DNA of 59,885 nt from Desulfobacterium sp. GTDB lineage: Bacteria > Desulfobacterota > Desulfobacteria > Desulfobacterales > Desulfobacteraceae. The notes under the pieces are model-generated. The model did not search any database. It was not told the origin of the DNA and was given only the letters and a program-made list of their open reading frames with translations. Positions 34,035 through 51,246 of this stretch are shown piece after piece. The position numbers and the translations under genes were made by a program. The first letter of the stretch is position 1. Each line of letters starts with the position of its first letter. Where the stretch lies: NCBI GenBank assembly GCA_016342325.1, contig JAEINR010000025.1, positions 1 through 59,885 on the forward strand. Direction: 5' to 3'.

Positions 34035-34058
34035 GGGAGTCAGTGTCCTTCTCTGAAA

Positions 34059-34095: not shown

Positions 34096-34233
34096 TTTCA
34101 AAATGCAATACAAACAATCATCAGAGCTTGAACAACAATCGAATTTAACGATCTGTTAATATAGAGAAAAACTGCATCAATGCATACCTGCAGCCGAATT
34201 GATCGGGCCGCATAAAATCAAGGAGAATACAGG

Positions 34234-34926
34234 ATGAAGGTGATTGGACTCCTAGGCGGTATGAGCTGGGAAAGTACCGCATTGTATTATCGATGGATCA
34301 ATGAAGAGGTCAAAAAAAGACTGGGCGCTCTGCATTCGGCACGGATCGCCATGGTGAGTGTGGATTTTCATGAAATTGAAATGCTCCAGCGTGCCGGCCA
34401 ATGGGACCGTGCCGGAGAGGTACTGGCCCAAGCCGCGCAACAGGTGGAGGCCGCAGGCGCAGATTTTCTTTTGATCTGTACCAATACCATGCACAAAGTC
34501 GCCCCCCAGATTGAAAATAGTATTTCAATTCCCCTGTTGCATCTTGCAGATGCAACAGCAGCGCATGTGAAGCAAAACAACATTAAAACCGTCGGTTTAC
34601 TGGGCACCCGGTTTACCATGGAGCAGGCGTTTTATAAAGACCGGTTAATTGAGCGCCATGGACTGAATGTGATTGTTCCGTGTGAAAAAGACCGACAGCG
34701 TGTCCACAAGATTATCTTTGAAGAACTCTGCCTTGGCATCGTGAAAGAAGCGTCAAGGCGTGAATACTTGAGAATCATGGCTCAAATGCAGGAACAAGGG
34801 GCGGAAGGCATTATTGAAGGATGCACGGAGATTGTCATGCTGGTCCAGCAGACCCATACGAATACCCCATTATTCGATACGACGGAGATCCATGCCAAAC
34901 AAGCGGTTACCCTGGCGCTCAACTAA
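34234..34926 (+). CDS. Asp/Glu racemase family protein, RacX/YgeA-like amino acid racemase
   Basis: 230 residues with GLLGGMSWESTALYYRWINE at the start, the first active-site block CTNTMH (Cys about 83) and the second EGCTEI (Cys about 193). The GGMSWEST form is typical of the YgeA/RacX broad-specificity racemases rather than strict aspartate racemase. It is the first of three genes reading away from the MocR regulator, followed by a PLP lyase and an amidohydrolase. Confidence 0.9.
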   Translation: MKVIGLLGGMSWESTALYYRWINEEVKKRLGALHSARIAMVSVDFHEIEMLQRAGQWDRAGEVLAQAAQQVEAAGADFLLICTNTMHKVAPQIENSISIPLLHLADATAAHVKQNNIKTVGLLGTRFTMEQAFYKDRLIERHGLNVIVPCEKDRQRVHKIIFEELCLGIVKEASRREYLRIMAQMQEQGAEGIIEGCTEIVMLVQQTHTNTPLFDTTEIHAKQAVTLALN

Positions 34927-34993
34927 ATTTGCCAGGACACAAGCAGGTGCGGAAGAATGCTGATTTTTAAATTTACATACAACAAAGGTAAAG

Positions 34994-35992
34994 ATGATGG
35001 ACACGATAAAGGATTTTCCGATTTCAATTGCTGAGGTGATCAGAGCACGCAAGCCTGTATATGAACACATGCAACCGACGCCCCTGATACAATATGATGG
35101 CCTGTCGGCAATACTCGGGGTCCATGCCCATGTAAAACACGAAAATCACAATCCCACAGGAAGCTTTAAGATTCGCGGCGGCATTAATCTGATGTCCCAC
35201 CTGAAGGCGAACGGTATAAAGGGCGTAATTACTTTTTCCACGGGAAATCATGGCATCTCAATTGCCAGTGCCGCCTCATGGTTTGGTATGAAAGCCGTTG
35301 TGGTTGTCCCGGAAAACAACAATCCGTCAAAAAACAGAATCATACGACAAGCCGGGGCTGAGCTGATTGAAGCAGGCAGCACGTTTGAAGAGGCATCAAA
35401 AGTGGTTGAGTCCCTGTGTAAAACCAGAGGGCTGTACTATGTTCACCCGGCAGAGGAACCCCACCTGATAAATGGTGTCGGCACCGAATTTTTAGAGGTG
35501 ATGGAAGACCTTCCCGATGTTGATGCGGTTATCGTACCCGTTGGCGCCGGCAGTGAGGCCGCTGCTGCCGCTGTCACACTCAAGGCCGTTAAACCGGAGA
35601 TCGAAATTTATGCCGTGCAGGCGGAAAAGTCTCCGGCCGCATATCATTCCTGGAAAGAGGGAAGATTATTAACAGCACCCAATACAACCTTTGCAGGGGG
35701 CTTCGCAACCGGGGCGGCCTATGAAACCCCCTTCGGTATTTATAAAGCGCATTTAACAGATTTTATACGTCTCTCAGAAGATGAACTTTATGAAGGAATC
35801 GCTTTGGCCGGCTTCTACACACGCAACCTGGTTGAAGGGGCCGGCGGTTCAACCATTATGGCGGCAATAAAGTTGAAAGATCAACTGCAAGGAAAAAGAG
35901 TGGTATTGCAATTCAGCGGGTGCAACGCCTCTCCGGAGGAGATAAGATTTGCGTATCAACTTCCATCGTTTTCAAATGGATATGCAGCTTGA
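34994..35992 (+). CDS. Threonine dehydratase-like PLP ammonia-lyase
   Basis: 332 residues, fold-type II PLP enzyme of the serine/threonine dehydratase group. PLP lysine in TGSFKIRGG (about residue 57), STGNHGISIASAA, VPVGAGSEAAAAA glycine loop, and C-terminal EGAGGSTIMAAI. It lacks the C-terminal ACT regulatory domain of biosynthetic threonine deaminase. The family deaminates hydroxy-amino acids to keto acids, or acts on related substrates such as in ectoine degradation (EutB). Preceded by a racemase gene, so it may use one enantiomer supplied by it. Substrate not determined. Confidence 0.87.
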   Translation: MMDTIKDFPISIAEVIRARKPVYEHMQPTPLIQYDGLSAILGVHAHVKHENHNPTGSFKIRGGINLMSHLKANGIKGVITFSTGNHGISIASAASWFGMKAVVVVPENNNPSKNRIIRQAGAELIEAGSTFEEASKVVESLCKTRGLYYVHPAEEPHLINGVGTEFLEVMEDLPDVDAVIVPVGAGSEAAAAAVTLKAVKPEIEIYAVQAEKSPAAYHSWKEGRLLTAPNTTFAGGFATGAAYETPFGIYKAHLTDFIRLSEDELYEGIALAGFYTRNLVEGAGGSTIMAAIKLKDQLQGKRVVLQFSGCNASPEEIRFAYQLPSFSNGYAA

Positions 35993-36101
35993 AAAGGCAG
36001 TCTTGATCCGCTTGCTGACAATCAGATGAATTACAACGTCCGGCACATATGGTATATTATTTTCAAGGTCCGTTCATCAAAACAAACCAACGGAGAAGAC
36101 C

Positions 36102-36686
36102 ATGGAAAATAATATAGCAAAATCAAAAAAGATAGCGGTACTTGTTATCGATATGCAGCGGGATTTCATTGACAAGGGAGCTCCCATCGAATGTCCGGGA
36201 GGTAGAGACATCATCGTTCCTATCCAGCGGTTATTGGCCGTTGCCCGCCAAAGAAATTTACCGGTGATTTACACCCAGGAAGCCCATCGGTCCCAGGGTG
36301 TGGATTTCGGCCGTGAACTTGACGGAGAAGAACCCGTACACTGCGTGGAAGGAACGCCCGGTATTGAAATCGTACCAGACCTGGCCAGGCAGCAGGGGGA
36401 TTTTTTAATTGTGAAAAGACGGTATAGCGCCTTTTTCGCGACAGATCTCGATCTGTTGCTCCGGGGTCTGAATATTGACACGTTAGTGCTTAGCGGGGTC
36501 GCAACCGACGTGTGTGTGAGAGCCACCGCCCAGGATGCCCAACAGTTGAATTACAAAGTCATCGTACCTGATGAATGCGTAGCCGGAACCTCTGTTGAGC
36601 AACACGGCGCCGCCCTTAAAAATATTTCCTATATCCTTGGCAAGGTATTGCCCCTGGATGAGATTATATCCATGCTTAAAAAATAA
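36102..36686 (+). CDS. Isochorismatase-family cysteine amidohydrolase
   Basis: 194 residues with the full catalytic triad: Asp in VIDMQRDFID (about 18), Lys in VKRRYSAFFATDLD (about 105) and Cys in GVATDVCVRATAQDA (about 140). The nucleophile pattern TDVCVRATA is that of amidases such as nicotinamidase, N-carbamoyl amino-acid or ureidoacrylate hydrolases rather than isochorismate lyase. With the racemase and lyase upstream it may remove an N-carbamoyl or amide group from an amino-acid substrate. Confidence 0.88.
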   Translation: MENNIAKSKKIAVLVIDMQRDFIDKGAPIECPGGRDIIVPIQRLLAVARQRNLPVIYTQEAHRSQGVDFGRELDGEEPVHCVEGTPGIEIVPDLARQQGDFLIVKRRYSAFFATDLDLLLRGLNIDTLVLSGVATDVCVRATAQDAQQLNYKVIVPDECVAGTSVEQHGAALKNISYILGKVLPLDEIISMLKK

Positions 36687-36853: not shown

Positions 36854-36901
36854 TTGACATAAATAGAACACCGTTCTATTTAATTAACCTAACAGTGTTA
36901 G
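36854..36901 (+). promoter_or_regulatory. Promoter with embedded TetR-type operator for the tetR-GRE operon
   Basis: TTGACA (36854-36859), 17 bp, TATTTA (36877-36882): a near-consensus sigma-70 promoter. A palindrome with 10-bp arms TAAATAGAAC / GTTCTATTTA and spacer ACC (36860-36882) fills the space between -35 and -10. A second palindrome CTAACA-G-TGTTAG (36889-36901) sits around the start site. This is what an autorepressed TetR-family promoter looks like; AAGGAT and the tetR start follow. Confidence 0.82.
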
Positions 36902-36923
36902 ATTAATATTAAGGATGGTTAAC

Positions 36924-37559
36924 ATGTCAAGAAAGTCGCGGTCCCCGGAGGTTATTGAAAAAGTTAAAAACGATATCATTGAAGCGGCGCTGGAATTGAT
37001 GCTTGATGTTGGCTTTAACAATATGAGCATGAGAAAACTTGCTGAAAAAGTCAACATGACAGCAACCAATCTCTACTATTATTATTCAAATAAAGACGAA
37101 ATTTATCTTTCCCTTCAGATAAAAGGATTTAGACTTTTGCACGGAATTTTACAGGATATTTGCGATGGGGATACTGATTCCCATGAAATCCTGAAAAAAA
37201 TGATCCGGGCATATCTTGAATTCGGTTTTACCAACCCTGACTATTATCGAATCATGTTGAACAGTGATACCCCCAGGTACAACGAATACAAGGGAACTGA
37301 AGTAGAGGCCGTGGCATTTATTGATAAGCAGATAGCCCTTGATATGGGGGAGCTTGTAGCAAAAGTCATTTCCGATATTGCAAAAACAAATCCGTCGGTT
37401 CACGTGGCGGATGCTGATTTCAGGGCAAAACAAATGTGGGTAACCCTCCATGGGATTGTGGTTTTAAACAACCGGAATATTTTACAGGAAGCAGATGAAA
37501 ATCCTGACAAACTTATCGAAAGAATGTGTGAGGATTTACTGGCTCCGTTTTCAAACTGA
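36924..37559 (+). CDS. TetR/AcrR family regulator of the GRE operon
   Basis: 211 residues from ATG at 36924, chosen for AAGGAT eight bases upstream. N-terminal TetR helix-turn-helix: IIEAALELMLDVGFNNMSMRKLAEKVNMTATNLYYYYSNKDEIYL. The C-terminal ligand domain (about 65-205) is not assignable to a subfamily. It lies 48 bp before the first GRE gene and behind a palindromic operator, so it probably represses itself and the GRE genes until a small, perhaps hydrophobic, substrate binds. Confidence 0.92.
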   Translation: MSRKSRSPEVIEKVKNDIIEAALELMLDVGFNNMSMRKLAEKVNMTATNLYYYYSNKDEIYLSLQIKGFRLLHGILQDICDGDTDSHEILKKMIRAYLEFGFTNPDYYRIMLNSDTPRYNEYKGTEVEAVAFIDKQIALDMGELVAKVISDIAKTNPSVHVADADFRAKQMWVTLHGIVVLNNRNILQEADENPDKLIERMCEDLLAPFSN

Positions 37560-37607: not shown

Positions 37608-40574
37608 ATGAACATAAACTATATGAACTTGCTGACCCACTGGGCGCTGGGTTTAATGGCGGCCCAGTTTAATTATCGCCCGTCCTTGAAACCATATTTG
37701 AAAAGCAAGGATGGCTGGATAAATTTTTCAATCGGAATTACCACAGAAACCGGCAGTGTTTCCCAGGCGATCATTTTCCATAACGGCAAGGTTCGAACAA
37801 CGTCGAAAATCCCCTCGAATGTTGATTCCATAATGAAGTTTGCCGACAATGATGTATTGGTGAGCATGGCTAAAGGTACGCCCAATGATATCTTCAATCT
37901 GATACTAAAGAACAGGCTTATCGCCCAAGGGAACCTGAATTCCTTACAGGCCTTCAATTTTTATGTTTCTCTTTTAATGGAAAAATCCCATCAAAAAAAG
38001 CTTGAAAAAGCCTGGGCCCAGGAAATCAAAGAGCGAAAAGCCGATGCCGTGGCGATAAGCCCGGCGGTTTACAAAGCCTTTATCGAAAGAAAGAACTACC
38101 GGATGAAAGGAGAACAAGGCGCTGATCCGGGAGTTAAATACCTGGACGATCCCTTTCTTTCAAAATATAAAATCGAAGATTTTCCAAGATTACAGGTATT
38201 CCTTGATAGTCATTTTGAGACAAAACCGGAAATTTGTCCTGAAAGACCCCAAATCCTGACCAGATGGTTCAGAGAAAACGGCTTTGAAGAAAAGAAAACC
38301 GGGGAGGCATGGTTCCCGGAATCAAGGCAGGCATTGGCGTTTAAGTATCTGATGGAAAACAGAAAACCGATCATCCGCAAAAATGATCTTATGGCCGGAA
38401 CAACAACGTCAAAGGCGACAGGGGTGACCTGTTTTCCCGATGGTCAGGCGCATATGTTCTGGGGCGAGTTGAATTCAGTCAACAACAGGGTTTTAAATCC
38501 ATATACCTGTTCTAAAGAAACCGCTGATATTCTCCATAATGACGTTCTGCCGTTCTGGATAAACAGAACGTTCAGGGAATATATAAGAACAAAATACGAT
38601 TATCCGATGTGCCAGCAGATAGATGAACGGTTTGTCGCCTATTTTGTCTGGAAATCCGTTGGCATTTCCCACACCATCCCCAATTTTAAAAGACTGCTTG
38701 AAAAGGGAACACTGGGTATTATCGATGATATTCAAAACCAGCTGAACCATGACATTGATACGCGACAAAAACAGTCCCTGGAAGCCATGGAGATCTGCCT
38801 GGAAGGGATTAATGGATATGCCGCGAATCTTCAAAAAGAAGCCAACGAACTTGCACAAAAAGAAACAGACAACAAAAGGAAAAAAGAGCTTGCGCATTTG
38901 GGAAAAATTTGCAGCCGGGTGCCTTCCAAGCCTGCCAGGACCCTGGATGAAGCATTAAATTCCATCTGGATCGTCTGGACGGCCATTCATATGGAAAATT
39001 CCAATACGGGAACGTCCCTTGGAAGGCTTGACCAATGGCTCCAGCCGTATTTTGAAAGTGATATGGCAAAACTTGAGACGGATGAAGAACGCAAGACGTA
39101 CATAAAATATGCCATTGAATTGACCGGTTGCTTTTATATGCGCCTCACGGACCATGTTCCGCTGTTGCCGGATGTGGCCAATTTTCTTTTCGGGGGGGCG
39201 TCCTCCACCCAGGCCGTAACAGTAGGCGGCATTACCCCTGGAGGAGAAGATGCGGTTAACGACATGACCTATATTCTCCTTAAGGTTACCGAACTGCTGG
39301 CCGTAAGGGATGTCAACCTCAATGCCCGGTTCCATAGTGATAAAAACAGCGACAATTACTTAAAAAGGCTATGCGAAGTCAATATCATCACCGCTGCAAC
39401 ACCGATCATGCAGGGGGACAAAGCCGTCATTCAGTCGTTGTCCCAGCACGATTATCCTGAAGAAGCAATAAATGACTGGGCCGCCACCGGATGTGTCGAG
39501 CCCACGCTCCAGGGACAAAACTTCAGCCATACCGCTTCCATTTTACTCAACATGGTGGCGTCCATGGAATTAGCCCTTAATAATGGGTTTCATCCCCTCA
39601 TGAACTGGTCGCCCGGCCCTGAAACCGGACGCATAGAAGATGGCGATTTTAAAACCTTTGAAGATTTCTTTACGGCATGGAAGATCCAGCAGGAATTCAT
39701 TATCGGACAGGCCGTTGAGCTGAACAATCTTCTTGGGGAAGCCCATCAGCAGATTCGTCCGACCCCACTGCTATCCAGCCTTATTGACGGCGCCATTGAA
39801 AGCGGAAAAGATGTTCTCCATGGCGGGGCACGGTACAATAGTTCAGGAACGTCGAATATCGGGATTTCCGATGTAACCGATTCGTTACTGGTAATAAAAA
39901 AGCTTGTTTTTGATGAAGAAAAAATACGGTTTCAGGATCTTAAAAAAGCCATTGATACAAACTTTGAAGACGCCCCCGGACTCCATGCAATGGTAAAGAC
40001 CAAGGTGCCGCTGTTTGGTTCCGGGGATAAAGACGCCATTAAAATGGCAAACCGTGTGGCAAAGGTTGTCCACGATTGCTATATGACCCATAAAAACTAT
40101 CGTGGGGGACGATATGCCGCAGGCTTCTGGTCCATGTCCCAGCACGTTGCCTATGGCTCCTTATCCGGCACCCTTCCTTCCGGCCGGTTGGCAGGCAAGC
40201 CCTTTACCCCGGGCCTGACACCAACGCCCCATGCGACAAAGAATTTCCTGAATAACATTTCAGATGTTGCAGCGCTGAACCCAGAGTATATGGATAACAA
40301 TATAGCCTTTAATGTAAAAATCACCCCCGCTGCAAACGAGTCCCGGGAAAAGAATGTGGATACCATGTTTTTCTATGTAAAATCCTATTTTGAGCAAGGC
40401 GGAATGCAGATGCAGTTTAATGTTGTCACCTCTGAGATGTTAAAAGATGCGGTTGCAAATCCGGAAAACCATCGAAATCTGATGGTTCGCATTTCGGGAT
40501 ATAACGCATACTTTGTAACCCTGAACCGGGAAATTCAACAAGAGTTAATAGAAAGGGCGGAATACGGTTTATGA
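37608..40574 (+). CDS. Glycyl radical enzyme 1 with N-terminal SCP2-like domain
   Basis: 988 residues from ATG 37608, chosen because MNINYMNLLTHWAL then aligns with the starts of the two paralogues; a GTG frame extends to 37572. Residues ~25-130 form an SCP2-like carrier domain (DGWINFSIGI, QAIIFHNGKVR, DVLVSMAKGTPNDIFNLIL, QGNLNSLQAFNFYVSLL). The rest is a PFL-type barrel: active-site Cys629 with Glu631 in TGCVEPTLQG and radical Gly964 in VRISGYNAYF, 25 residues from the end. CxE with Pro matches eliminating or decarboxylating GREs (diol dehydratase, CutC and decarboxylase types), not PFL. Usual GREs have ~800-900 residues. Reaction unknown. Confidence 0.9.
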   Translation: MNINYMNLLTHWALGLMAAQFNYRPSLKPYLKSKDGWINFSIGITTETGSVSQAIIFHNGKVRTTSKIPSNVDSIMKFADNDVLVSMAKGTPNDIFNLILKNRLIAQGNLNSLQAFNFYVSLLMEKSHQKKLEKAWAQEIKERKADAVAISPAVYKAFIERKNYRMKGEQGADPGVKYLDDPFLSKYKIEDFPRLQVFLDSHFETKPEICPERPQILTRWFRENGFEEKKTGEAWFPESRQALAFKYLMENRKPIIRKNDLMAGTTTSKATGVTCFPDGQAHMFWGELNSVNNRVLNPYTCSKETADILHNDVLPFWINRTFREYIRTKYDYPMCQQIDERFVAYFVWKSVGISHTIPNFKRLLEKGTLGIIDDIQNQLNHDIDTRQKQSLEAMEICLEGINGYAANLQKEANELAQKETDNKRKKELAHLGKICSRVPSKPARTLDEALNSIWIVWTAIHMENSNTGTSLGRLDQWLQPYFESDMAKLETDEERKTYIKYAIELTGCFYMRLTDHVPLLPDVANFLFGGASSTQAVTVGGITPGGEDAVNDMTYILLKVTELLAVRDVNLNARFHSDKNSDNYLKRLCEVNIITAATPIMQGDKAVIQSLSQHDYPEEAINDWAATGCVEPTLQGQNFSHTASILLNMVASMELALNNGFHPLMNWSPGPETGRIEDGDFKTFEDFFTAWKIQQEFIIGQAVELNNLLGEAHQQIRPTPLLSSLIDGAIESGKDVLHGGARYNSSGTSNIGISDVTDSLLVIKKLVFDEEKIRFQDLKKAIDTNFEDAPGLHAMVKTKVPLFGSGDKDAIKMANRVAKVVHDCYMTHKNYRGGRYAAGFWSMSQHVAYGSLSGTLPSGRLAGKPFTPGLTPTPHATKNFLNNISDVAALNPEYMDNNIAFNVKITPAANESREKNVDTMFFYVKSYFEQGGMQMQFNVVTSEMLKDAVANPENHRNLMVRISGYNAYFVTLNREIQQELIERAEYGL

Positions 40575-41491
40575 AAAAGACATTAATCCTGGAGCTAAAA
40601 GGAAATTCCCTGGACGATGGTCCGGGAATCCGATCGGTTGTATTTTTCAAGGGATGTCCCCTTTCCTGTATCTGGTGCCATAACCCGGAAAGTAAAAAAA
40701 CCGGTGTTGAAATTTCATTTGAACCCAATGAATGCGTCGGCTGCAACACCTGCCTTGGGACGTGCACAAAAAACGCCCTGTCAAAGGAGAATCCGTTTTT
40801 CATTGACCGGACATTGTGCAACCTGTGTTTTGAGTGTGTGACAAATTGCCCGTCCAATGCCTTGGAGCGGGTGGGCCATGAAATGAACGTCCCTGAAATT
40901 GTTGAAACCGTACTCAAGGACAAACCCTTTTTTGATACGTCAAAGGGCGGGGTGACCTTTTCCGGCGGAGAGCCGACCCTGGACATGGATTTTCTGGGGA
41001 AAACGGCAAAAGCCCTGAAAGAAAACGGGGTGCATGTTCTCATTGAAACCTGTGGTCAGTTTAATTACGAAAAATTTAATGAACTTGTGTATCCCCATGT
41101 GGATTTAATCTATTTTGATATCAAGATCATGGACAGCAGTCATCATAAAAAGTACTGCGGACTTCCCAATAAAACAATCCTTGAAAATTTCAGAACCCTT
41201 TACCGAAGATACCTGGACGGAGGTACGGAAGTTCTGCCAAGAACGCCTTTAATACCGGACATTACCGATACAAAGGAAAATCTTCTGGCCATTGTTTCCC
41301 TTTACAAAGAAGAACAGGTAAAGAAAACCCAATTGATGGCATACCATCCCCTGTGGCGGGATAAAAACCTTAAATTGGGCATATCCCTCCCTTCAACCAG
41401 TGAAGGCAAGATGGGAGAATGGATGGCCACGGAAAGGACCAAAGCGTGTGAGAAGATATTTACGGATGCGGGTATTGCTTTGGAACCATAG
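40571..41491 (+). CDS. Glycyl radical enzyme activating enzyme (radical SAM)
   Basis: 306 residues. Start: SLDDGPGIRSVVFFKGCPLSCIWCHNPES with the CxxxCxxC SAM cluster; then two ferredoxin-type clusters (CVGCNTCLGTCTKNA and CNLCFECVTNCPSNA), as in activases of non-PFL GREs; then TFSGGEPTLD and VLIETCGQ. It abstracts hydrogen from the GRE glycine to make the radical. ATGA overlaps the stop of GRE 1, so it is coupled to it. It is the only activase here and presumably serves all three GREs, whose RISG(Y/F)NAYF loops are almost the same. Confidence 0.96.
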   Translation: MKKTLILELKGNSLDDGPGIRSVVFFKGCPLSCIWCHNPESKKTGVEISFEPNECVGCNTCLGTCTKNALSKENPFFIDRTLCNLCFECVTNCPSNALERVGHEMNVPEIVETVLKDKPFFDTSKGGVTFSGGEPTLDMDFLGKTAKALKENGVHVLIETCGQFNYEKFNELVYPHVDLIYFDIKIMDSSHHKKYCGLPNKTILENFRTLYRRYLDGGTEVLPRTPLIPDITDTKENLLAIVSLYKEEQVKKTQLMAYHPLWRDKNLKLGISLPSTSEGKMGEWMATERTKACEKIFTDAGIALEP

Positions 41492-41502
41492 AGGAGAGAA
41501 CA

Positions 41503-44472
41503 ATGGGTACAAGAAACCACATGAACATCCTGTCCCACTGGGCCCTGCAATTAATGGCAGCCCAGTTTAACTTCCGGTCTTCTTTGAGAAAATATCTCAA
41601 AAGCTCGGATGGGTGGACCAATTTCACCATTGGCCTTAAAACTGAAACCAACACCATGGCCCAGGCGATTGCGTTTCAAAACGGCCGTGTCCGGGTACTG
41701 AAACATATACCGGACAGTGCGGATGCCGTCATGCGGTTCGTCAATGATGATGTCGTAAAGGAAATCGTCAAAACCACCCCCAATGAGATGGTCACGCTTA
41801 TTTTGAAAAACAAAGTGATCCTGGATGGCAACATGGCCTACCTCCAGGCCTTTAACTTCTTTGTTTCCCTGCTTCTGGGCAAGTGGCACCAGAGAATACT
41901 GGACCAGACCCACCAACAGGACATTAAATCCAGAAAAGAGGAATATGGCATCAGTGATCCGGAATTTTCAAAGGAGCTGGTCAAAAGAAAAGAGGGTCGG
42001 TTAAAAGCGGATACCATAGATGCCGGGGTCAAATATCTTGATGAACCATATCTGTCCGAATATGGCATCGATACTTTCCCGCGGATAAAAAGGCTCCATG
42101 AAATCTATTTTTCAACAACCCCTGAAATTTCGTCGGAACGGCCGGTTCTTCTGACAGAATGGTATCGGGAAAACGGCTTTGAAACCGATCCCACCGGCGC
42201 CCCCTGGGTGCCTGAACTGCGCCAGGCCCATGCCTATAAATACCTGATGGAAAACAAAACGCCCTTTATCCGAAAGGATAGCCTTATTGCCGGCACCACC
42301 TGCCTGGAGGAAGTGGGTGTCCTGATCTATCCGGATACAACCGGAACAGTGATATGGGGGGAACTTAGATCCATTGATAAAAGAATGCTCGCGCCCTACA
42401 ATATCTCAGAGAAAACCGCCCGGGACCTTCACGATATCTTCCCCTACTGGGCCAAAAGAACCACCCGGGCATGGATCAATGAAAACCGGGGGTATCCCTT
42501 TTGCCAGAAGATTGACGAACGCTTTGTGGCATCGTTTAATTTCAAGCTCGTCAGCATATCCCATACAGTGCCCGACCTTCCCCGTTTTGTAAATGACGGC
42601 ACCCATGCCATGATTGAAGAGATTCAACAGCAGATAGAGGCATTACCCGACGGCGAGACCGGCAAACGGGATACCCTGAACGCCATGGTGCTCTGTCTGG
42701 AGGGGTTAAATACCTATGCCGCCCATCTTGCCGAAGAAGCAAAACGCCTTGCTGAAAAAGAAAGCGATCCAAAACGAAAAGAGGAATTAACAAAACTGCA
42801 TCAAATTTGCCGGCATGTTCCTGCCCACCCGGCAAGAACCCTTGACGAAGCCGTTAATTCCGCATGGATCTCCTGGGTCGGGCTTCTTATGGAGAATACC
42901 AATGTATCCCTTTCTCCGGGAAGATCAGACCAGCTTTTTCAGCCGTTTTTTGAAAAAGAGATGGCCCAGCGTTCCACTGGCCAGGAGAAAAAACAATATT
43001 TAGAACATGTGATTGAGCTGATCTCCTGCTATTTCCTCAGAAATGCCGAGCACCATGCCCTTGTACCGGATGTGTCAAATTATCTGTTCGGCGGCAGCCA
43101 GTCCCAAACGGCCATCACCCTGGGCGGGGTTACCCCCGAAGGTAAAGATGCCGTCAACGACATGACCTATATATTTTTAAAGGTTACGGAAATGTTATCC
43201 ATGACCGAGCCGAACATGAATGCGCGGTTCAAACTCGGGATAAACAGCGACACCTACCTTAAACGCCTGTGCGAAGTCAATTATGTTACGGTGGCGACGC
43301 CTTCCATGCATAATGACGATGCGGTCATGGAAGCCTTCAGCCAGAACGCTGATAAGATTGAAGATCTGCGGGACTGGGCCGCCACCGGCTGTGTGGAAAT
43401 AACCTTGTCTGGCAAGCATATGAGCCATACCGGCGCCACATCGGTGAACATGGTGGCCGGACTTGAAATGGCGTTAAACAACGGTTACCATCCCCTGATG
43501 AACTGGCACCTCGGCCCAAAGACCGGGGAGGTGGCCAATGGTGATTTCAAGACCTTTGACGCTTTTTTTGAGGCGTTTGCCGCCCAGCAGAAATTCATCA
43601 TCGACAATACCATTGAGCTGAACAACATGTCGGCTGCGGCCTATGCCTACCTTCGTCCAACTCCCCTCCTGAGTACAGCCATACAGGGAGCCGTTGAAAA
43701 TGCAACAGACGTCACCCAAGGCGGTGCCATTTACAACACATCGGGCAGCTTCAACATCGGGCTTTCCGATGTGGTGGATTCCCTGATGGCTATCAAAACG
43801 CTTGTGTTTGATGAGAAAAGAATCACCTTTGAAGAGTTAAAAGAGGCCATTGACTCCAATTTCCAGGGGAATCCCGCCCTCCATGCAATGGTGCTCAACA
43901 AGGTGCCCCGGTTCGGATCCGGCAGTGACGAAGCCGTTGATATGGCCAACAGATTAACAACCCTGATCCATGGTTGCTACAAATCCACCAAAAATTTCCG
44001 GGGAGGAGATTACACGGTGGGATTCTGGTCCGTGGCCCAGCATGTGGCCTACGGCACACTTTCAGGCGCCCTCCCCTCGGGCAGGCTTGCCGGCCGGGCC
44101 TTTACCCCCGGCGCCACCCCGGACGCGTCTGCTTCAAAAAATTTCCTGGATAACATCCGTGATGTGGCACGGCTGGACCCGCACAACATGGACAACAATA
44201 TTGCCTTTAATGTTAAACTTGTCCCCAACCCAAAGGATTCCCGGGAAAAGCTCGTAAACACAATGTTCTCCTATGTGAAAACCTATTTTGAACAGGGGGG
44301 CATGCAGATCCAATTTAATATGATCAATTCAGATGTCTTAAAAGATGCCATGGCAAATCCTGAAAACTATCAAAATCTTCTTGTTCGGATTTCAGGCTTT
44401 AACGCCTATTTTGTAACCCTGAACAAGGAAATACAGATGGAACTTATTGGAAGAGCGAAATACGGATTGTAA
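41503..44472 (+). CDS. Glycyl radical enzyme 2 with N-terminal SCP2-like domain
   Basis: 989 residues, GAGGAGA five bases before ATG, 11 bp after the activase. Same layout as GRE 1: SCP2-like region (DGWTNFTIGL, QAIAFQNGRVR, GNMAYLQAFNFFVSLL), then the GRE barrel with Cys630/Glu632 in TGCVEITLSGKHMSHTG and radical Gly965 in VRISGFNAYF. Ile replaces the Pro that follows CVE in GRE 1 and many characterised eliminases, and the following loop differs, so the substrate pocket is probably different. Most residues are shared with GRE 3, far fewer with GRE 1. Confidence 0.9.
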   Translation: MGTRNHMNILSHWALQLMAAQFNFRSSLRKYLKSSDGWTNFTIGLKTETNTMAQAIAFQNGRVRVLKHIPDSADAVMRFVNDDVVKEIVKTTPNEMVTLILKNKVILDGNMAYLQAFNFFVSLLLGKWHQRILDQTHQQDIKSRKEEYGISDPEFSKELVKRKEGRLKADTIDAGVKYLDEPYLSEYGIDTFPRIKRLHEIYFSTTPEISSERPVLLTEWYRENGFETDPTGAPWVPELRQAHAYKYLMENKTPFIRKDSLIAGTTCLEEVGVLIYPDTTGTVIWGELRSIDKRMLAPYNISEKTARDLHDIFPYWAKRTTRAWINENRGYPFCQKIDERFVASFNFKLVSISHTVPDLPRFVNDGTHAMIEEIQQQIEALPDGETGKRDTLNAMVLCLEGLNTYAAHLAEEAKRLAEKESDPKRKEELTKLHQICRHVPAHPARTLDEAVNSAWISWVGLLMENTNVSLSPGRSDQLFQPFFEKEMAQRSTGQEKKQYLEHVIELISCYFLRNAEHHALVPDVSNYLFGGSQSQTAITLGGVTPEGKDAVNDMTYIFLKVTEMLSMTEPNMNARFKLGINSDTYLKRLCEVNYVTVATPSMHNDDAVMEAFSQNADKIEDLRDWAATGCVEITLSGKHMSHTGATSVNMVAGLEMALNNGYHPLMNWHLGPKTGEVANGDFKTFDAFFEAFAAQQKFIIDNTIELNNMSAAAYAYLRPTPLLSTAIQGAVENATDVTQGGAIYNTSGSFNIGLSDVVDSLMAIKTLVFDEKRITFEELKEAIDSNFQGNPALHAMVLNKVPRFGSGSDEAVDMANRLTTLIHGCYKSTKNFRGGDYTVGFWSVAQHVAYGTLSGALPSGRLAGRAFTPGATPDASASKNFLDNIRDVARLDPHNMDNNIAFNVKLVPNPKDSREKLVNTMFSYVKTYFEQGGMQIQFNMINSDVLKDAMANPENYQNLLVRISGFNAYFVTLNKEIQMELIGRAKYGL

Positions 44473-44570
44473 TTCAAATTCCTAACCTTGACAAGCCAGA
44501 ACCAAAGCGTTTTTCTGATTCTCTTGCCAAAATAACATGAACATCGTAACTAAAAAACTAAGGAAACAAA

Positions 44571-47540
44571 ATGCATTCAAGAAATCACATGAACATTTTT
44601 ACCCATTTGGCATTACGGTTAATGGCGGCCCAGTTCAACTTCAGGCCGTCATTGAACAAGCATCTTAAAAGCGCGGACGGTTGGACGAACTTTTCCATTG
44701 GCCTTAAAACTGAAACCGGCACCATGGAACAGGCGATTGTGTTTCAAAACGGCCATGCCCGGGTACTGAAATATATACCGGAAAAAGCGGATGCCGTCAT
44801 GCGGTTCATCAATGATGACATTTTAAAAGAAACGGTCAGGATCACACCCAATGAGATGCTTAATCTTATTTTAAAGAACAAAATAATTTTGGACGGAAAC
44901 ATGGCATATCTTGGGGCGTTTAACTTTTACATCTCCCTGATCATGGGTCGGCGGTACCAGAGAATGCTCGATAAAGCGAATCTTTTAGAAATCAAATCCA
45001 GAAAAGAGGAATACGGGATAAACGATCCCGGGTTCGCAAAAGAGCTTGATAAAAGAAAAGAAAGCCGGTTAAAGGCGGACACGATTGATGCCGGGGTAAA
45101 ATGCCTTGAAGATCCATACCTGTCGGAATACAGCATTGAGGCCTTTCCGCGGATTAAGATGCGCCATGAAAAGCATTTTAATGCCACCCCTGAAATTTCC
45201 TCAGAAAGACCCGTACTGCTGACCCAATGGTATAGACGACACGGGTTTGAAAAAGACAGCGACGGCAACCCGTGGACGCCGGAACTCCGCCAGGCATATG
45301 CCTTTAAATACCTCATGAAAAACAAAAAACCCGTTATCCGAAAGGACAGCATTATTGCCGGCACCACCTGTCCTGAGGAAGTCGGGGTTTTGGTTTATCC
45401 GGATACAAGCGGCACCCTGATATGGGGAGAACTGGGTTCTATCAGTAAAAGAGTGCTCACGCCCTGCAATATATCAAAAGAAACAGCCGGCCAGCTCCAC
45501 GATATCTTCCCCTTCTGGGCAAAAAGGACAACCCGGGCCTGGATTAGTGAAAACCATGGCTACCCCTTTTGCCAGAAGATTGACGAAAGAAGTGTTGCTT
45601 CTTTTAATTTCAAGACCGTATCCATGTCCCATACGGTGCCGGACCTGCCCCGATTTGTAAATGACGGCACCCTTGCCATAATTGAAGAGGTTCAGCAACA
45701 GATAAAAGCACTCGCCCCGGAGGAATCAGACAAACGAAACACCTTAACGTCAATGATGCTATGCCTTGAAGGGCTGAATGCCTATGCCGCCAATCTTGCC
45801 AAAGAAGCAAAGACACTTGCTGATAAAGAAACCGATCCCCAGCGAAAAGAGGAATTAAACAGGCTGTATCAAACCTGCAGCCATGTTCCTGCAAATCCCG
45901 CCAGGACCCTTGACGAGGCGGTCAATGCCGCGTGGATCTCCTGGATCGGTCTGCTGATGGAGAATACGAACGTATCCCTTTCTCCAGGAAGATTGGACCA
46001 GCTGTTTCAACCGTTTTTCGAAAAAGAGATGGGAAGTCTTTCCACAGGGGATGAGAAAAAACAATATTTGGAGCATGTCATTGAGCTGATCTCCTGCTAC
46101 TTCCTGCGCAATGCCGAACACCACAATCTGGTACCGGACGTGGCCAATTACCTGTTCGGCGGAAGCCAGTCGGAAACAGCCATCACCGTCGGTGGGGTGA
46201 CCCCGGACGGCAAAGATGCCGTGAACGATATGACCTATATTATTCTAAAGGTCACGGAGATGTTATCCCTGAATGATCCGAACATGAATGCGCGGTTCAA
46301 GCTGGGCGTCAACTCCGACACCTATCTGAAACGCCTGTGCGAAGTGAATTATGTCACCGTTGCAACGCCTTCCATGCACAATGATGATGCGGTCATGGAA
46401 GCCTTCAGCCAGAACTCGGATAAAATTGAAGACCTGCGGGACTGGGCATCCACCGGATGTGTGGAAATAACCTTGTCAGGCAAGCACATGAGCCATACCG
46501 GGGCCACATCGGTGAACATGGTGGCCGGACTTGAAATGGCGTTAAACAACGGTTACCATCCCTTGATGAACTGGCACCTGGGTCCAAAGACCGGGGTGGT
46601 GGCAAATGGGGATTTCAAGACCTTTGACGATTTTTTTGTGGCTTTTGCCGCCCAGCAGAAATTTATAATAGACAATACCGTTGAGCTGAACAATATGGCG
46701 GCAGAGGCCTATGCCTATCTCCGCCCAACCCCCCTTCTCAGCACCTGTATCAAAGGCGCCGTTCAAAATGCCACAGACGTCACCAAAGGCGGGGCCGTTT
46801 ACAATACGTCGGGCAGCTTTAATATCGGGCTTTCCGATGTGGTGGATTCCCTGATGGTGATTAAAAAGCTGGTCTTTGATGAAAAAAGAATCACCTTTGA
46901 AGCGTTAAAGGATGCCATTGATTCCAATTTTGAAAACGATCCCTCCTTACATGCCATGGTACATAAAAAAGTGCCCCGGTTCGGATCCGGCAGCGCAGAA
47001 GCGGTTGACATGGCAAACAAATTGACGGGCCTGATCCACGGGTGCTATAAATCGACCAAAAACTTTCGAGGCGGCGACTACACCGTGGGGTTCTGGTCCG
47101 TTGCCCAGCATGTTGCCTACGGTACCCTTTCCGGGGCACTGCCTTCAGGCAGACTTGCCGGCCGGCCCTTTGCTCCGGGAGCCACTCCGGACCCATCCGC
47201 TTCGAAAAATTTCCTGGATAATATCCGTGATGTGGCTCAACTGAACCCCCACCACATGGACAACAACATTGCCTTTAATGTCAAGCTGGTTCCCGGGCCG
47301 GATGATTCACGGGAAAAAATCGTAAACACCATGTTTTCCTATGTGAAAACCTATTTCGAACAGGGGGGCATGCAGATTCAGTTCAACGTGATCCATTCAG
47401 ATGTCTTAAAAGATGCCATGGCAAACCCTGAAAACTATCAAAATCTGCTTGTGCGGATTTCCGGATATAATGCCTATTTTGTACGTCTTAACAAAGAAAT
47501 GCAGATCGAACTGATTGAAAGGGCGAAATACGGGTTGTAA
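44571..47540 (+). CDS. Glycyl radical enzyme 3 with N-terminal SCP2-like domain
   Basis: 989 residues, AAGGAA upstream, 98 bp after GRE 2. Nearly the same as GRE 2 in its active-site loops: Cys630/Glu632 in TGCVEITLSGKHMSHTG and radical Gly965 in VRISGYNAYFVRL. Differences are concentrated in the N-terminal domain and surface helices. It looks like a recent tandem duplicate of GRE 2. The pair may make isoenzymes, or hetero-oligomers as the dimeric GRE fold would allow. It ends before a 16-bp hairpin, the likely end of the operon. Confidence 0.9.
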   Translation: MHSRNHMNIFTHLALRLMAAQFNFRPSLNKHLKSADGWTNFSIGLKTETGTMEQAIVFQNGHARVLKYIPEKADAVMRFINDDILKETVRITPNEMLNLILKNKIILDGNMAYLGAFNFYISLIMGRRYQRMLDKANLLEIKSRKEEYGINDPGFAKELDKRKESRLKADTIDAGVKCLEDPYLSEYSIEAFPRIKMRHEKHFNATPEISSERPVLLTQWYRRHGFEKDSDGNPWTPELRQAYAFKYLMKNKKPVIRKDSIIAGTTCPEEVGVLVYPDTSGTLIWGELGSISKRVLTPCNISKETAGQLHDIFPFWAKRTTRAWISENHGYPFCQKIDERSVASFNFKTVSMSHTVPDLPRFVNDGTLAIIEEVQQQIKALAPEESDKRNTLTSMMLCLEGLNAYAANLAKEAKTLADKETDPQRKEELNRLYQTCSHVPANPARTLDEAVNAAWISWIGLLMENTNVSLSPGRLDQLFQPFFEKEMGSLSTGDEKKQYLEHVIELISCYFLRNAEHHNLVPDVANYLFGGSQSETAITVGGVTPDGKDAVNDMTYIILKVTEMLSLNDPNMNARFKLGVNSDTYLKRLCEVNYVTVATPSMHNDDAVMEAFSQNSDKIEDLRDWASTGCVEITLSGKHMSHTGATSVNMVAGLEMALNNGYHPLMNWHLGPKTGVVANGDFKTFDDFFVAFAAQQKFIIDNTVELNNMAAEAYAYLRPTPLLSTCIKGAVQNATDVTKGGAVYNTSGSFNIGLSDVVDSLMVIKKLVFDEKRITFEALKDAIDSNFENDPSLHAMVHKKVPRFGSGSAEAVDMANKLTGLIHGCYKSTKNFRGGDYTVGFWSVAQHVAYGTLSGALPSGRLAGRPFAPGATPDPSASKNFLDNIRDVAQLNPHHMDNNIAFNVKLVPGPDDSREKIVNTMFSYVKTYFEQGGMQIQFNVIHSDVLKDAMANPENYQNLLVRISGYNAYFVRLNKEMQIELIERAKYGL

Positions 47541-47668: not shown

Positions 47669-49798
47669 CTATTGTTCCAGGCTCCCCATGATGAAATCAA
47701 AGTCGTGCACCGTGACCAGGGGCGTGGTCTCTGCTTGGTCCGATCCCGTTATTGTCATGTTGGTGTGGGTTGAAATGCTGTCCGGAGTGTCCTGCACCCC
47801 ATTGCCATCATACCTTACGAGTTGCAATACAAAGTCCATGGAAACGTCGTACTGGCCGCTGCCTTTGGAGGTGAGGCTGAAGGTCAGTTTATCCGTCCTT
47901 TTGTCGCCTCCGTTTTCGTTCATATTCAGAAAAGCCTCCCGGGTGGATGGGTCATTCATCAAAAGGATTAGCAGTGTTGCCCCGGAGGCCTGGAAGAGCC
48001 CCCTGGTCGTCTGCCCGGCTTCGTTGATGCTCGGGAATTTGGAGATGAGCCTGTCCAGGGTCTGTTCCATGCGTCCTTTATCGTTGGTGCCGGATCCCGG
48101 GATGGCCTCACCGTCCACGATAATGCCGTTGCGGAAGAAGTCTTTCAAAAAGTCCTCTGAAAAATGAGCACTCTTGTCCTTCAAGGATTGCGGATCAATG
48201 GAATCGCCTTGTTTCGCCTTTTGAAGGGGGGAAGTCATGTCCTCGTTGATATTTTTGGACAGGAACTGCAAGGCGTTGTCCATGTCGAAACCGTGGATCC
48301 CGGGCAGCCCCTTGTCGGCATGGACCCCCGGACCAAGAAAAGCCCGTGCCTGGTCAAACGTCACGCCGTCCAGGCCCGGTCCTTTGCTTTGGCGATCCAA
48401 GGTTTTCTTGGGCACCCCGAGATGCCGGGCCAGTGTGGTCATCACCTCCACGTAGGCCGCTTGCTTTTTTTGATGAACTGAATTCCCCATATCCTGCCGT
48501 TCCTGGCTGAAGCGGCACGCGTTCATGGCCGACCCAGTGGCGGTCAACCGGCCAAAAACCGCCATGCCCATGTCACCGTCCAGGCCACCCAGCTTAAATC
48601 CGCCTTGGAGAAGGGCTTCTTTGACCACCGCCACCTCGTCCATGCCGTCGATACCATCACGTTTTTTCCCTTGCTCGTCCAGGAAAGACCTGTCCATGGC
48701 GCCAATAAAGGTATCCATGGCATCACTGACTTGGCCGGATGTGAGTCCCGGTGTGTGCAGTGTCTGCACCAGGGAATGGGTGTCCCTGATCCCGTCGCAC
48801 AGGGCCCCGGCCATGCCCTTGGTGAACACCAGGGATGAGGTGTTCACCACCTCCCGGGCCACCTCCTTCTCCCGGGGAGTGAGACTGGTGTTATCGTCTA
48901 TGACCTGCAAGGAGTTCAAGAAACTGTCGATGACCTTTTCCCGCAAGGCCTGCACCTCAGTGTCCGATGGGGGGTGGATGTTTTTCAGATCATAACCGCA
49001 GGTCACCGTCACCTTTTTCTGAATTAGACTGAGCAGCTTCCCCATATGGTCCGGGCCCATGTCCACCTTTATGCCTCGCTGGGCAGCCCTGTCCCTGAGG
49101 GCCGTGGGCAGAGCAGAATCCGGACCGGAATGATCACAATGGGCTTGGACCTTGTTCTCAATGTGATCATTATACCGGTCAAGGGAGAATCTACGACAGG
49201 CATCCAGGAGACCTTTCTCAAGCTGGTCCGGGGAGGGAGTCACGCCATTACCGGCAATTTTTTCCGCCAGCTTGTCCTTGATCCCCTTGTAATCGTCGGC
49301 GGTCAAGGCATCCATCTCGCCCGCCATGCCGAACACCTTCATCTTCGTCTCCATGCTCTTGACCAGAAAAGAAACCGAGCCTGGGCCACCACTGGGGGAG
49401 TCGCAGAAGTCCCTGACGTTGAGCTTGATGTTGGCCGCCTGGGCCATGTCCTCGCTTTTGATACGGAAGATATCCCCCAGGACCCTGGAGATTTGACGGC
49501 CAGTGATGGGGGTGCCTTTTTCAAGGGCGCTCCCGAAATTACCCTTGGCGATCTGGGCAAAGCGGTCCCCCATGCCCGGGGTGTCCCGAATGGTCCCGAT
49601 GACGTGGTTCATGATACTGCGGTTCTCCTGGGCAGCTCCCCCGATGTTCAGGGCCGACTTGATCCAATTCACAGTGCGGCCCAGCCAGTTATTCGCCCCG
49701 ACCTGCAGTTGGTTCTGATCTTTTAACCCCACATGGCGATCACCGACATTGCTGAACACCTCGTTCAGGCTTGCAAGACTTTGTATATTTTGAGGCAT
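47669..49798 (-). CDS. Large unknown protein, candidate type III secreted substrate
   Basis: 709 residues from ATG 49798 (AAGGAG upstream); a longer frame to 49999 overlaps the chaperone gene and is discarded. No signal peptide or membrane helix. Family not recognised. Near the C-terminus SEDFLKDFFRNGIIVDGEAIPG followed later by GLFQASGATLL matches SDNFMNDFARSGVVVNGTRIG and LLFQAGEA of the protein at 54076-56598, so the two share a C-terminal module. It starts 29 bp after a CesT-like chaperone gene, the normal arrangement of a type III effector with its chaperone. Function unknown. Confidence 0.75.
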   Translation of the reverse strand: MPQNIQSLASLNEVFSNVGDRHVGLKDQNQLQVGANNWLGRTVNWIKSALNIGGAAQENRSIMNHVIGTIRDTPGMGDRFAQIAKGNFGSALEKGTPITGRQISRVLGDIFRIKSEDMAQAANIKLNVRDFCDSPSGGPGSVSFLVKSMETKMKVFGMAGEMDALTADDYKGIKDKLAEKIAGNGVTPSPDQLEKGLLDACRRFSLDRYNDHIENKVQAHCDHSGPDSALPTALRDRAAQRGIKVDMGPDHMGKLLSLIQKKVTVTCGYDLKNIHPPSDTEVQALREKVIDSFLNSLQVIDDNTSLTPREKEVAREVVNTSSLVFTKGMAGALCDGIRDTHSLVQTLHTPGLTSGQVSDAMDTFIGAMDRSFLDEQGKKRDGIDGMDEVAVVKEALLQGGFKLGGLDGDMGMAVFGRLTATGSAMNACRFSQERQDMGNSVHQKKQAAYVEVMTTLARHLGVPKKTLDRQSKGPGLDGVTFDQARAFLGPGVHADKGLPGIHGFDMDNALQFLSKNINEDMTSPLQKAKQGDSIDPQSLKDKSAHFSEDFLKDFFRNGIIVDGEAIPGSGTNDKGRMEQTLDRLISKFPSINEAGQTTRGLFQASGATLLILLMNDPSTREAFLNMNENGGDKRTDKLTFSLTSKGSGQYDVSMDFVLQLVRYDGNGVQDTPDSISTHTNMTITGSDQAETTPLVTVHDFDFIMGSLEQ

Positions 49799-49827
49799 GG
49801 ATGTCTCCTTATGCGTAAACGTTAGGT

Positions 49828-50313
49828 TCAGACACGGATGGCCATTCCGGACCGGATGGATAGTTCGGAAGAATCCTGGGATGTTTCTCCGTCGTTCCCA
49901 AAGGACGCGGTGGTGATTTCCCGGATCTGGGCTTCGAATTCCTCGGCCAGATTGACAAAAGCCTGGACATAGTCCCCAAAAACATTGGCGTTTCGCCACC
50001 CGTCAGTGCCAACTTTGTTGGTGTAAATGATGGCATCACGGGCCATGTCCACGCCAAGCACACCGCCGCTGGTTCCCCGGAAGAAGCAATCGGTTTCCAG
50101 CAAATAGGTGAACGTGCGAAGCCGGGTCTCCCCATTCTCGGGCACGGCCCAGACCCTGCTATAAAAATAAAACTCTTCAGATTCAGGTAGATACTCCAGA
50201 TTGACGACCACATGGTCAAATTGCAAGGTACAACAATTTTTCTCGTCCAGGGCCAGGTCCTTCAGGCCAATGGTTTGGCCGAAATCTGCGACAAGATCAC
50301 TCACACTACTCAT
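49828..50313 (-). CDS. CesT/Tir-type type III secretion chaperone
   Basis: 161 residues from ATG 50313 with AAGGAG seven bases upstream. The opening VSDLVADFGQTIGLKDLALDEKNCCTLQFD and the mixed strand/helix pattern fit class I type III chaperones (small, acidic, dimeric, ~130-160 residues), which begin with a helix, then GLxxLxLDexgxCxLxfd. Such chaperones bind the N-terminal part of one effector. The immediate downstream neighbour is the 709-residue protein, its probable client. Confidence 0.75.
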   Translation of the reverse strand: MSSVSDLVADFGQTIGLKDLALDEKNCCTLQFDHVVVNLEYLPESEEFYFYSRVWAVPENGETRLRTFTYLLETDCFFRGTSGGVLGVDMARDAIIYTNKVGTDGWRNANVFGDYVQAFVNLAEEFEAQIREITTASFGNDGETSQDSSELSIRSGMAIRV

Positions 50314-50490: not shown

Positions 50491-51246
50491 TCATATGTGA
50501 ACAAAAACATATCCCCCCCGGCCATACCCGAAATGTTTAAACATATGGTTATAATTGGTAGAGAGACCTTTGTAAAAGGTGTCAAAACAAATCTGGTAGG
50601 GATGGGGTTGGTAGGGGTCCACATCCAGCAGGGTGACTTGACACGTGTCCGGGTCAAACCCTCCCACCGGAGAGATATGGGGAATATTGAGTTCCTGGAC
50701 AAAACTGCCCTGGTCAAAATGGGCAATGATCAGGCAATTGCCTTGGGTTTCAAATTGCGTAAGCCTGGCCAGAAGCGTCTCCTGGATGGACCGGGCAGAT
50801 CCACGGCCCCTTTTGGCCTGGACGGTCTCAACAGATCGGTAACCGATGTCATAGGTGTCCAGGCTGGCTTTCACCACCTGGGCGAGCACGGTCAGGGGAA
50901 GCCCTCGGCGGCCCTTGTAGCCATTCTCTCCCATGCGTTCCTTCCAATGGGCGGTTCTCACCTTTTCAAGGATTTCCTGCTGGGTAATGGGAGGCAGGTT
51001 CAGGGGCTGGTTCGTTTGCAGAATGGAATTGACCATGCAGACCACCGAGGCAACGGAACAGGAGGATTCGTGGAATTGCTTGACATGGTGGCGGAACAGC
51101 GCGTTCTTTAACGGGTTTCCGGTGGATTTGTAGGGGGTAAGAATATAATCGGCCCGATGGGGTCCAAAGGTGCCGGTTCCTGTTATTTTATGAAAATAAA
51201 ACCGCAGATAAAGATAGCTGCGCATGATATATCTTGATACAAGCAT
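50491..51246 (-). CDS. Phytochelatin-synthase-like cysteine peptidase
   Basis: 251 residues. The catalytic Cys-His-Asp triad of phytochelatin synthase is visible: Cys in FHESSCSVASVVCMVN (about residue 65), His in IPHISPVGGFDP (about 190) and Asp in VTLLDVDPY. Bacterial family members hydrolyse glutathione or other gamma-Glu-Cys peptides. The N-terminus is uncertain (ATG 51246 or 51225). No signal peptide. It lies upstream of the chaperone-substrate pair on the same strand with a 177-bp gap, so a role in that system, perhaps as a secreted enzyme, is conjecture. Confidence 0.78.
   Translation of the reverse strand: MLVSRYIMRSYLYLRFYFHKITGTGTFGPHRADYILTPYKSTGNPLKNALFRHHVKQFHESSCSVASVVCMVNSILQTNQPLNLPPITQQEILEKVRTAHWKERMGENGYKGRRGLPLTVLAQVVKASLDTYDIGYRSVETVQAKRGRGSARSIQETLLARLTQFETQGNCLIIAHFDQGSFVQELNIPHISPVGGFDPDTCQVTLLDVDPYQPHPYQICFDTFYKGLSTNYNHMFKHFGYGRGGYVFVHI

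Follow-up and report, generated by a model that had tools for sequence, protein, structure and literature searches.

The contig analysed here, termed the window (59,885 nt; JAEINR010000025.1, contig 140 of the 6.67 Mb genome of Desulfobacterium sp., assembly GCA_016342325.1), carries an operon for a TetR-family regulator, three glycyl radical enzymes (GRE1, GRE2 and GRE3) and one radical S-adenosylmethionine (SAM) activating enzyme. Each GRE has, in front of its catalytic barrel, an N-terminal domain of ~135 aa which, judged by profile comparison, is a remote relative of SCP2. Homologues of this domain also occur as small stand-alone proteins beside shorter GREs. This joint architecture, referred to here as SCP2-GRE and found in a fused and a split form, is real, coherent and widespread in the phylum. 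As far as sequence can tell, the SCP2-GREs are an undescribed branch of the GREs, with the SCP2-like module supplied in cis or in trans. They are read here as candidate eliminases, probably dehydratases, for a hydrophobic substrate that the module would present. The split form, the grouping of both forms in one GRE branch and the TetR gene with its palindromes go beyond the first-pass annotation.

The SCP2-like module, fused or separate

The motifs from which the first-pass annotation of the window had read an SCP2 lipid-carrier fold are present (WINFSIGI, WTNFTIGL and WTNFSIGL across GRE1 to GRE3, and GNxxxLxAFNF in all three). In a Pfam search of the full-length GREs, SCP2 was reported for GRE2 alone (E 0.011, 16.5 bits; cut-off 21.3), and the 140-aa N-terminal domain of GRE2, searched by itself, matched PF02036 with E 4.4e-4 (21.0 bits; gathering cut-off 21.3). 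No other family matches as many members as PF02036, which is found in 7 of 18 fused N-terminal domains and in 10 of the 19 stand-alone homologues. One stand-alone homologue, L067, lies over the cut-off (22.0 against 21.3 bits, profile positions 9–96 of 101).

A reference SCP2 profile was assembled from 13 domains of the same and neighbouring genomes, each above the Pfam cut-off. Alignment to it with hhalign gave E 4.5e-5 for the fused set and 8.1e-5 for the stand-alone set (all hhalign E-values are single-pair values). For either set, none of 200 column shuffles scored as high, and control profiles (reversed, TetR and DUF6765) gave E 0.03 or worse. The fused and stand-alone domains are homologous to each other (E 1.2e-14 over 114 columns). 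DUF7884 (PF25371), presumably an N-terminal domain of cyclopropane fatty acid synthases, was matched by 3 of 19 stand-alone members, by nothing in the window's own genome and in 1 of 14 control genomes; a literature search on it was empty, and it stays a mere lead.

With a threshold of E <= 0.001, a profile of the N-terminal domain found it, fused or free, in 64 of the 291 genomes sampled for the order to which the window belongs and in 44 of 395 genomes of the phylum. For a gut Clostridiales carrier, 2 of 247 genomes of its order had the domain and 1 of 391 of its class, the latter being the carrier genome itself. An earlier three-row profile had matched in 6 of 38 near relatives, and a plasmid search gave no match. 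The fusions are 986–1042 aa long (one interrupted frame set aside) and the stand-alone proteins 136–177 aa (the broken L010 set aside).

Pairing of the stand-alone gene with a GRE is close. Among 26 such loci, a GRE gene lies directly upstream in 23 (810–864 aa where complete) and an activase gene directly downstream in 21. The three loci without a GRE comprise L082, near a contig start, L224, with a short GRE remnant, and L220, where other genes are found. The converse search used a profile of split GREs, with no SCP2 in the query, and covered 146 genomes, with at most six candidates scored in each. At E <= 1e-200 it returned 45 matches: 36 fusions, eight split GREs with an adjoining SCP2 gene, and L213, a GRE that stops ~230 bp before the contig end, its neighbour falling outside the contig. 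Because 44 of the 45 are paired and L213 is at a contig edge, no testable GRE match over this threshold is without an SCP2-like module. An activase gene adjoins 24 of 46 fused GRE genes.

The window's own genome also has the split form, at L065 (contig 58, 7103–12123), with DUF6765, a GRE of 819 aa with the motif GCVEL, the stand-alone SCP2-like gene and an activase as consecutive genes. Several copies appear to be broken. The fused GRE of L010 consists of two short frames with the middle absent, that of L102 is interrupted by a 403-aa frame, the split GRE of L032 is in two frames, and in L224 the GRE ahead of the SCP2 gene has shrunk to its remnant.

Family membership and active site

All three window GREs score far over the cut-offs for PF02901 (PFL-like, 513.7–546.2 bits) and PF01228 (Gly_radical, 78.2–83.3 bits); the genome has seven PFL-like family matches. 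The active-site motifs and radical loops noted at first pass were confirmed, with GCVEP in GRE1, GCVEI in GRE2 and GRE3, RISGYNAYF in GRE1 and GRE3, and RISGFNAYF in GRE2. None of the three passed any of eight full-length NCBIfam GRE equivalog models (HypD, CutC, HpsG, HpfG, PRK09983, indoleacetate decarboxylase, 4-hydroxyphenylacetate decarboxylase and PFL), on which they scored 115–442 bits against cut-offs of 994–1150. The figures were 408–442 bits for HypD (cut-off 1100), 350–374 for CutC (1050) and 353–386 for HpsG (1000). On TIGR01774, the PFL2/glycerol dehydratase subfamily model, the window GREs reach 457.4–491.8 bits, under the cut-off of 678.2, and the two CutC proteins of the same genome are likewise below it (633.6 and 630.4 bits). 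The latter are encoded by two true choline trimethylamine-lyase genes (L001 and L002) ~8 kb apart on contig 194. The best solved-structure matches of GRE2 are the glycerol/diol dehydratases 1r8w and 5i2a (369.5 bits each), with HypD also among the closest.

In a tree of 67 GREs, the 51 SCP2-GREs are set apart by a branch with a Shimodaira–Hasegawa-like approximate likelihood ratio (SH-aLRT) support of 100, and the fused (36) and split (15) forms group separately with support of 99 and 98. CutC, HypD, HpsG, glycerol dehydratase, PflD, YbiW and five other GREs fall outside. An earlier 76-row tree gave the same groups (SH-aLRT 99, 100 and 100); the nine rows left out of the later one were L174_HpsG, a wrongly picked frame with a branch of 5.26, L007_other and seven near relatives, and the groups were unchanged. 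Both trees come from quick searches, their support being SH-aLRT without bootstrap. The joining of CutC with the SCP2-GREs in the 67-row tree may be false, so the tree does not fix the nearest known GRE. The prediction that these GREs belong to no subgroup of known reaction held among the subgroups tested, given equivalog scores far below cut-off and a separate tree group. On the simplest reading, one fusion or one fission would lie behind the two architectures. Three gut Clostridiales sequences are nested within the Desulfobacterota fusions in the 76-row tree, placed as after horizontal transfer.

For the active site, 58 SCP2-GREs (40 fused and 18 split; duplicates L033 and L085 and frames <780 aa excluded) were aligned with glycerol dehydratase (GDH, 1r8w), whose numbering is used here with the GRE2 equivalent in brackets. 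Cys433 (C630), Glu435 (E632) and His164 (H354) have equivalents in 58/58, while the radical Gly (G965) and a Trp at the position of Tyr640 (W842) are found in 57/57 rows that reach these positions. His281 (V468) and Asp447 (G644), which we take to be the residues holding the polyol or diol in GDH, have no equivalent in any of the 58; the former is replaced by T/V/A/S/I or M/I/V and the latter by G/N/A or S/G/A. The Tyr339 position is non-aromatic throughout (58/58). At the His164 position elsewhere, HypD has His (4/4), CutC Asp (2/2) and HpsG Gln (2/2 usable rows of three). The pattern in the SCP2-GREs fits an eliminase whose leaving group would need protonation and whose pocket would be a poorer match for a small polyol.

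Operon layout, regulation and neighbouring genes

The gaps along TetR, GRE1, activase, GRE2 and GRE3 are 48, −4, 11 and 98 bp, all genes being on the + strand, which argues for a single operon (Table 1); the −4 is the overlap of the activase start with the GRE1 stop. The open reading frames agree with the original description of three ~989-residue GREs (988, 989 and 989 aa) and one activase in one operon. GRE2 and GRE3 are 82% identical, and GRE1 and GRE2 56%. An alternative GTG start at 37572 would extend GRE1 to 1000 aa.

Table 1. Features of the SCP2-GRE operon, in window coordinates
Feature	Position	Strand	Basis
Promoter-like TTGACA-17-TATTTA, 5' of TetR gene, operator 1 in spacer	36854..36882	+	Read from sequence
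TetR operator-like palindrome 1, core AACACCGTT within TAAATAGAA-CACCG-TTCTATTTA	36867..36875	.	Core pattern shared by 22/23 regions upstream of TetR genes at fused loci
TetR operator-like palindrome 2, core AACAGTGTT	36891..36899	.	24 bp from palindrome 1
TetR-family regulator, first gene of operon	36915..37559	+	PF00440 45.5 bits, PF13305 39.6 bits
GRE1, 988 aa from ATG, CVEP	37608..40574	+	Open reading frame, motifs, Pfam
GRE1 SCP2-like N-terminal domain, approximate borders	37608..38012	+	
GRE1 PFL-like barrel domain	38187..40157	+	Pfam
GRE1 glycyl-radical domain (RISGYNAYF)	40206..40517	+	Pfam
Radical SAM GRE-activating enzyme, 306 aa, two auxiliary 4Fe-4S motifs	40571..41491	+	TIGR02494 279.5 bits (cut-off 174.35)
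GRE2, 989 aa, CVEI	41503..44472	+	Open reading frame, motifs, Pfam
GRE2 SCP2-like N-terminal domain, approximate borders	41503..41907	+	Pfam SCP2 over residues 28-118
GRE2 PFL-like barrel (H354, C630, E632, W842)	42079..44055	+	
GRE2 glycyl-radical domain (G965)	44101..44415	+	Pfam
GRE3, 989 aa, CVEI	44571..47540	+	Open reading frame, motifs, Pfam
GRE3 SCP2-like N-terminal domain, approximate borders	44571..44975	+	
GRE3 PFL-like barrel domain	45159..47123	+	Pfam
GRE3 glycyl-radical domain (RISGYNAYF)	47169..47483	+	Pfam

The activase has the radical SAM motif CX3CX2C (C29/C33/C36) and, as first annotated, two extra iron-sulfur clusters, represented by two CX2CX2CX3C motifs (C55–C65 and C83–C93) with Fer4 matches in Pfam. 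Such auxiliary clusters are ordinary, since most GRE activases have them according to PMC11528403. In the relative L008, neither an activase nor a TetR gene is near the two fused GREs, and L034, of the same genus, has TetR, a fused GRE and an activase together. This arrangement suggests that control and activation may act in trans. It also makes it plausible, because the L008 GREs have no activase beside them, that the single activase of the window serves all three GREs; the first-pass claim to that effect is kept at this strength.

Of 46 fused GRE genes, 24 have a TetR gene immediately in front of them, whereas none of the 26 split loci has one. The palindrome AACRSYGTT is found, often twice, in 22 of the 23 regions upstream of TetR genes at fused loci, a count that is partly circular because the pattern was derived from the palindromes of those regions; two of the 23 (L012a and L012b) draw on a single intergenic region and its three sites. 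The independent evidence consists of four comparisons. The remaining loci sequence has 16 sites in 440,337 bp (0.01 per region); 500 shuffles gave a mean of 0.2 of 23 regions with the palindrome and a maximum of 2; none of the 17 split GRE upstream regions examined has it; and two sites lie upstream in L008, which has no adjoining TetR gene and is the only one with sites among 15 fused loci checked that lack an adjacent TetR. The promoter-like element of Table 1 was not listed by the consensus promoter scan, whose rule requires the second hexamer to end in T.

Neighbours of the fused loci lean towards hydrophobic substrates but name none. Short-chain dehydrogenase/reductase (SDR) genes occur in seven of 35 fused loci (that of L095 ~5 kb away) and in L218 and L219. 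They resemble OleD, HpnA, 3beta-HSD and, weakly, KdsR, all under NCBIfam cut-offs, and some (3beta-HSD/OleD-like) belong to SDR types whose substrates are hydrophobic. L101 has an enoyl-CoA-hydratase-like gene (207 bits, below the cut-off of 330), and L219 has genes that are beta-oxidation-like by their opening residues alone. In split operons, DUF6765 is present in 9 of 21 loci (family assigned from one member) and a 315–813-aa family, cluster 4, in 10 of 21 (e.g. L069, L073, L077 and L081), two scanned members of which had no Pfam match. A further neighbour family, 'cluster 7', was rejected as an apparent artefact, its frames lying opposite the stand-alone SCP2 gene on the antisense strand.

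In the window, the region just 5' of the operon (32652–36686) encodes a MocR-type regulator (EhuR-like, 451 of 480 bits), an Asp/Glu racemase, a threonine-dehydratase-like PALP enzyme and an isochorismatase-like hydrolase; a racemase and regulator of the same clusters precede the L008 GREs too. On the other side, a 776-aa frame without a Pfam match (47669–49999, − strand) converges on the operon, followed by a phytochelatin-synthase-like protein (50491–51246, − strand; PF05023, 35.6 bits, above cut-off). In L031, an anaerobic sulfatase maturase (6053–7288, − strand; TIGR03942, 409.7 bits, over cut-off) adjoins the fused GRE.

Proposed function, alternatives and known systems

The reading preferred here, to which we give a probability of about one in two, is that the catalytic chain of an SCP2-GRE works with its SCP2-like module to carry out radical chemistry on a hydrophobic molecule, from a TetR-controlled operon. 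As is known for the GRE family, the activase and SAM would generate a radical on G965, which would then move to the conserved C630. The SCP2-like module would bind a hydrophobic molecule and offer its polar end to the barrel, where the thiyl radical could remove the hydrogen atom beside a hydroxyl while E632 accepts the hydroxyl proton. A leaving group, most likely water, might be expelled with the help of H354 to give a carbonyl product, by analogy with the glycerol and hydroxyproline dehydratases. Induction would follow when the putative TetR repressor, on meeting its ligand, quits the conserved palindromes in its own promoter.

Several observations weigh against this reading. None of the three window copies reaches the SCP2 cut-off of 21.3 bits (the best has 21.0), hhalign gives SCP2 probabilities of no more than 61–69%, and profile searches of solved structures gave no SCP2 chain (best E 0.48 for the fused and 0.078 for the stand-alone set, with unrelated names). 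The SCP2 assignment made at first pass is supported by the PF02036 matches in relatives and the profile–profile shuffles, the evidence from the window copies by themselves being weak. SCP2-like domains can also be mere structural modules. HpsG is a dehydratase, and since it has Gln at the His164 position, a His there is no strict mark of dehydration. No consistent set of pathway genes that would name the substrate was found across the 35 fused loci compared; SDRs are rare among them, and those scanned are below the named equivalog cut-offs.

A bolder version may be put forward tentatively, as a possibility that we consider weaker than the general one. The SCP2-GREs could be a lipid-acting class in which the carrier lifts a polar-headed hydrophobic molecule (hopanoid polyols, long-chain amino diols and glycerols with an alkyl or acyl chain are examples), the barrel strips a leaving group from the head and TetR responds to the lipid. 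Split or fused, it would be the same machine, present in many Desulfobacterota and, by transfer, in a few gut Clostridiales. If the carrier reading is true, the reach of GRE chemistry in anoxic sediments extends to hydrophobic compounds, whether membrane lipids or others. With its two proteins the split form lends itself to simple tests, and the TetR/operator pair offers a ready way to the ligand.

The alternative that survives best, although we consider it unlikely, is that the SCP2-like module carries no lipid and is a structural or regulatory subunit (an oligomer contact, an activase dock or a shield for the radical loop), with a role like that of the small subunits of benzylsuccinate synthase or hydroxyphenylacetate decarboxylase. 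Tight pairing with the GRE, whether within one chain or between two, is how a subunit would behave, the stand-alone gene is mostly placed between GRE and activase, and the loci hold no consistent lipid pathway. However, the two CutC enzymes of the same genome manage without the module (there is no SCP2-like match on their contig), and the replacement of the polyol-binding residues by small or apolar ones suggests a changed substrate.

Decarboxylation of hydrophobic compounds, or their addition to fumarate, appears improbable. Among the hosts of SCP2-GREs are relatives that bear the names Desulfosudis oleivorans and Desulfobacterium, sulfate reducers degrade hydrocarbons, and TutD, MasD and hydroxyphenylacetate decarboxylase are detectable as homologues of the window GREs. 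Their scores are among the lower ones of the characterised relatives: MasD gives 222 bits with GRE2, against 369 for the diol/glycerol dehydratases, TutD gives 156 with GRE1, and the arylacetate decarboxylase models give 207–294 against cut-offs of 1100–1150. Cys-Val-Glu with His is the eliminase pattern, which also counts against this alternative; of the two activities first proposed, eliminase or decarboxylase, the active site (Cys, Glu and His) suits the eliminase better. Least probable is a known dehydratase or lyase (for glycerol/propanediol, hydroxyproline, choline or sulfopropanediol) with an incidental N-terminal domain, as the closest solved relatives of GRE2 might suggest, given equivalog scores about one-third to two-fifths of the cut-offs (1640 and 1363 bits for the two genuine CutC on the CutC model), a position on the opposite side of the tree and the absence of GDH Asp447 and His281 in 58/58.

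Compared with known systems, the SCP2-GREs share with the glycerol/1,2-propanediol dehydratases (1r8w and 5i2a) the PFL-like architecture and the equivalents of Cys433, Glu435, Gly763 and His164, but lack Asp447, His281 and an aromatic residue for Tyr339, have Trp for Tyr640 and carry the extra SCP2-like module. With HypD they share the Cys, Glu and Gly and the His of the GHTV/SHTV motif; they differ in equivalog score (408–442 against 1100 bits) and lie on the other side of the tree. CutC is likewise a GRE of PFL2 type. The solved CutC 9f3w (1150 aa) has a different N-terminal extension, its GRE match beginning at residue 363 or 403, so extra length alone is not unique to the SCP2-GREs. In contrast to the SCP2-GREs, the CutC proteins of the same genome have Asp at the His164 position (2/2), and the window GREs fall far short of the CutC model (350–374 against 1050 bits). 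Multi-subunit GREs such as benzylsuccinate synthase and 4-hydroxyphenylacetate decarboxylase pair a catalytic GRE with an obligatory small partner; there the small subunits are iron-sulfur proteins, whereas here the partner is SCP2-like. We know of no characterised GRE that handles its substrate through a lipid-carrier module, and the titles and abstract openings listed from the open-licence PMC literature yielded no GRE with an SCP2, sterol-carrier or lipid-transfer module.

A parallel in design is found in oxygen-independent ubiquinone synthesis. In PMC6747719, UbiT is described as a 174-aa SCP2 protein that serves the hydroxylases of that pathway, UbiJ, with the same domain, as binding hydrophobic intermediates, and a ubiT-ubiU gene fusion is reported. 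An SCP2 helper beside an anaerobic enzyme is therefore, on that account, a known design. As with UbiT and UbiJ, the SCP2-GREs place a small SCP2 protein, free or fused, next to an anaerobic enzyme with a putatively hydrophobic substrate; the partners in the Ubi system are the UbiU-UbiV hydroxylases rather than GREs, and the kinship between the two systems runs through the SCP2 family alone.

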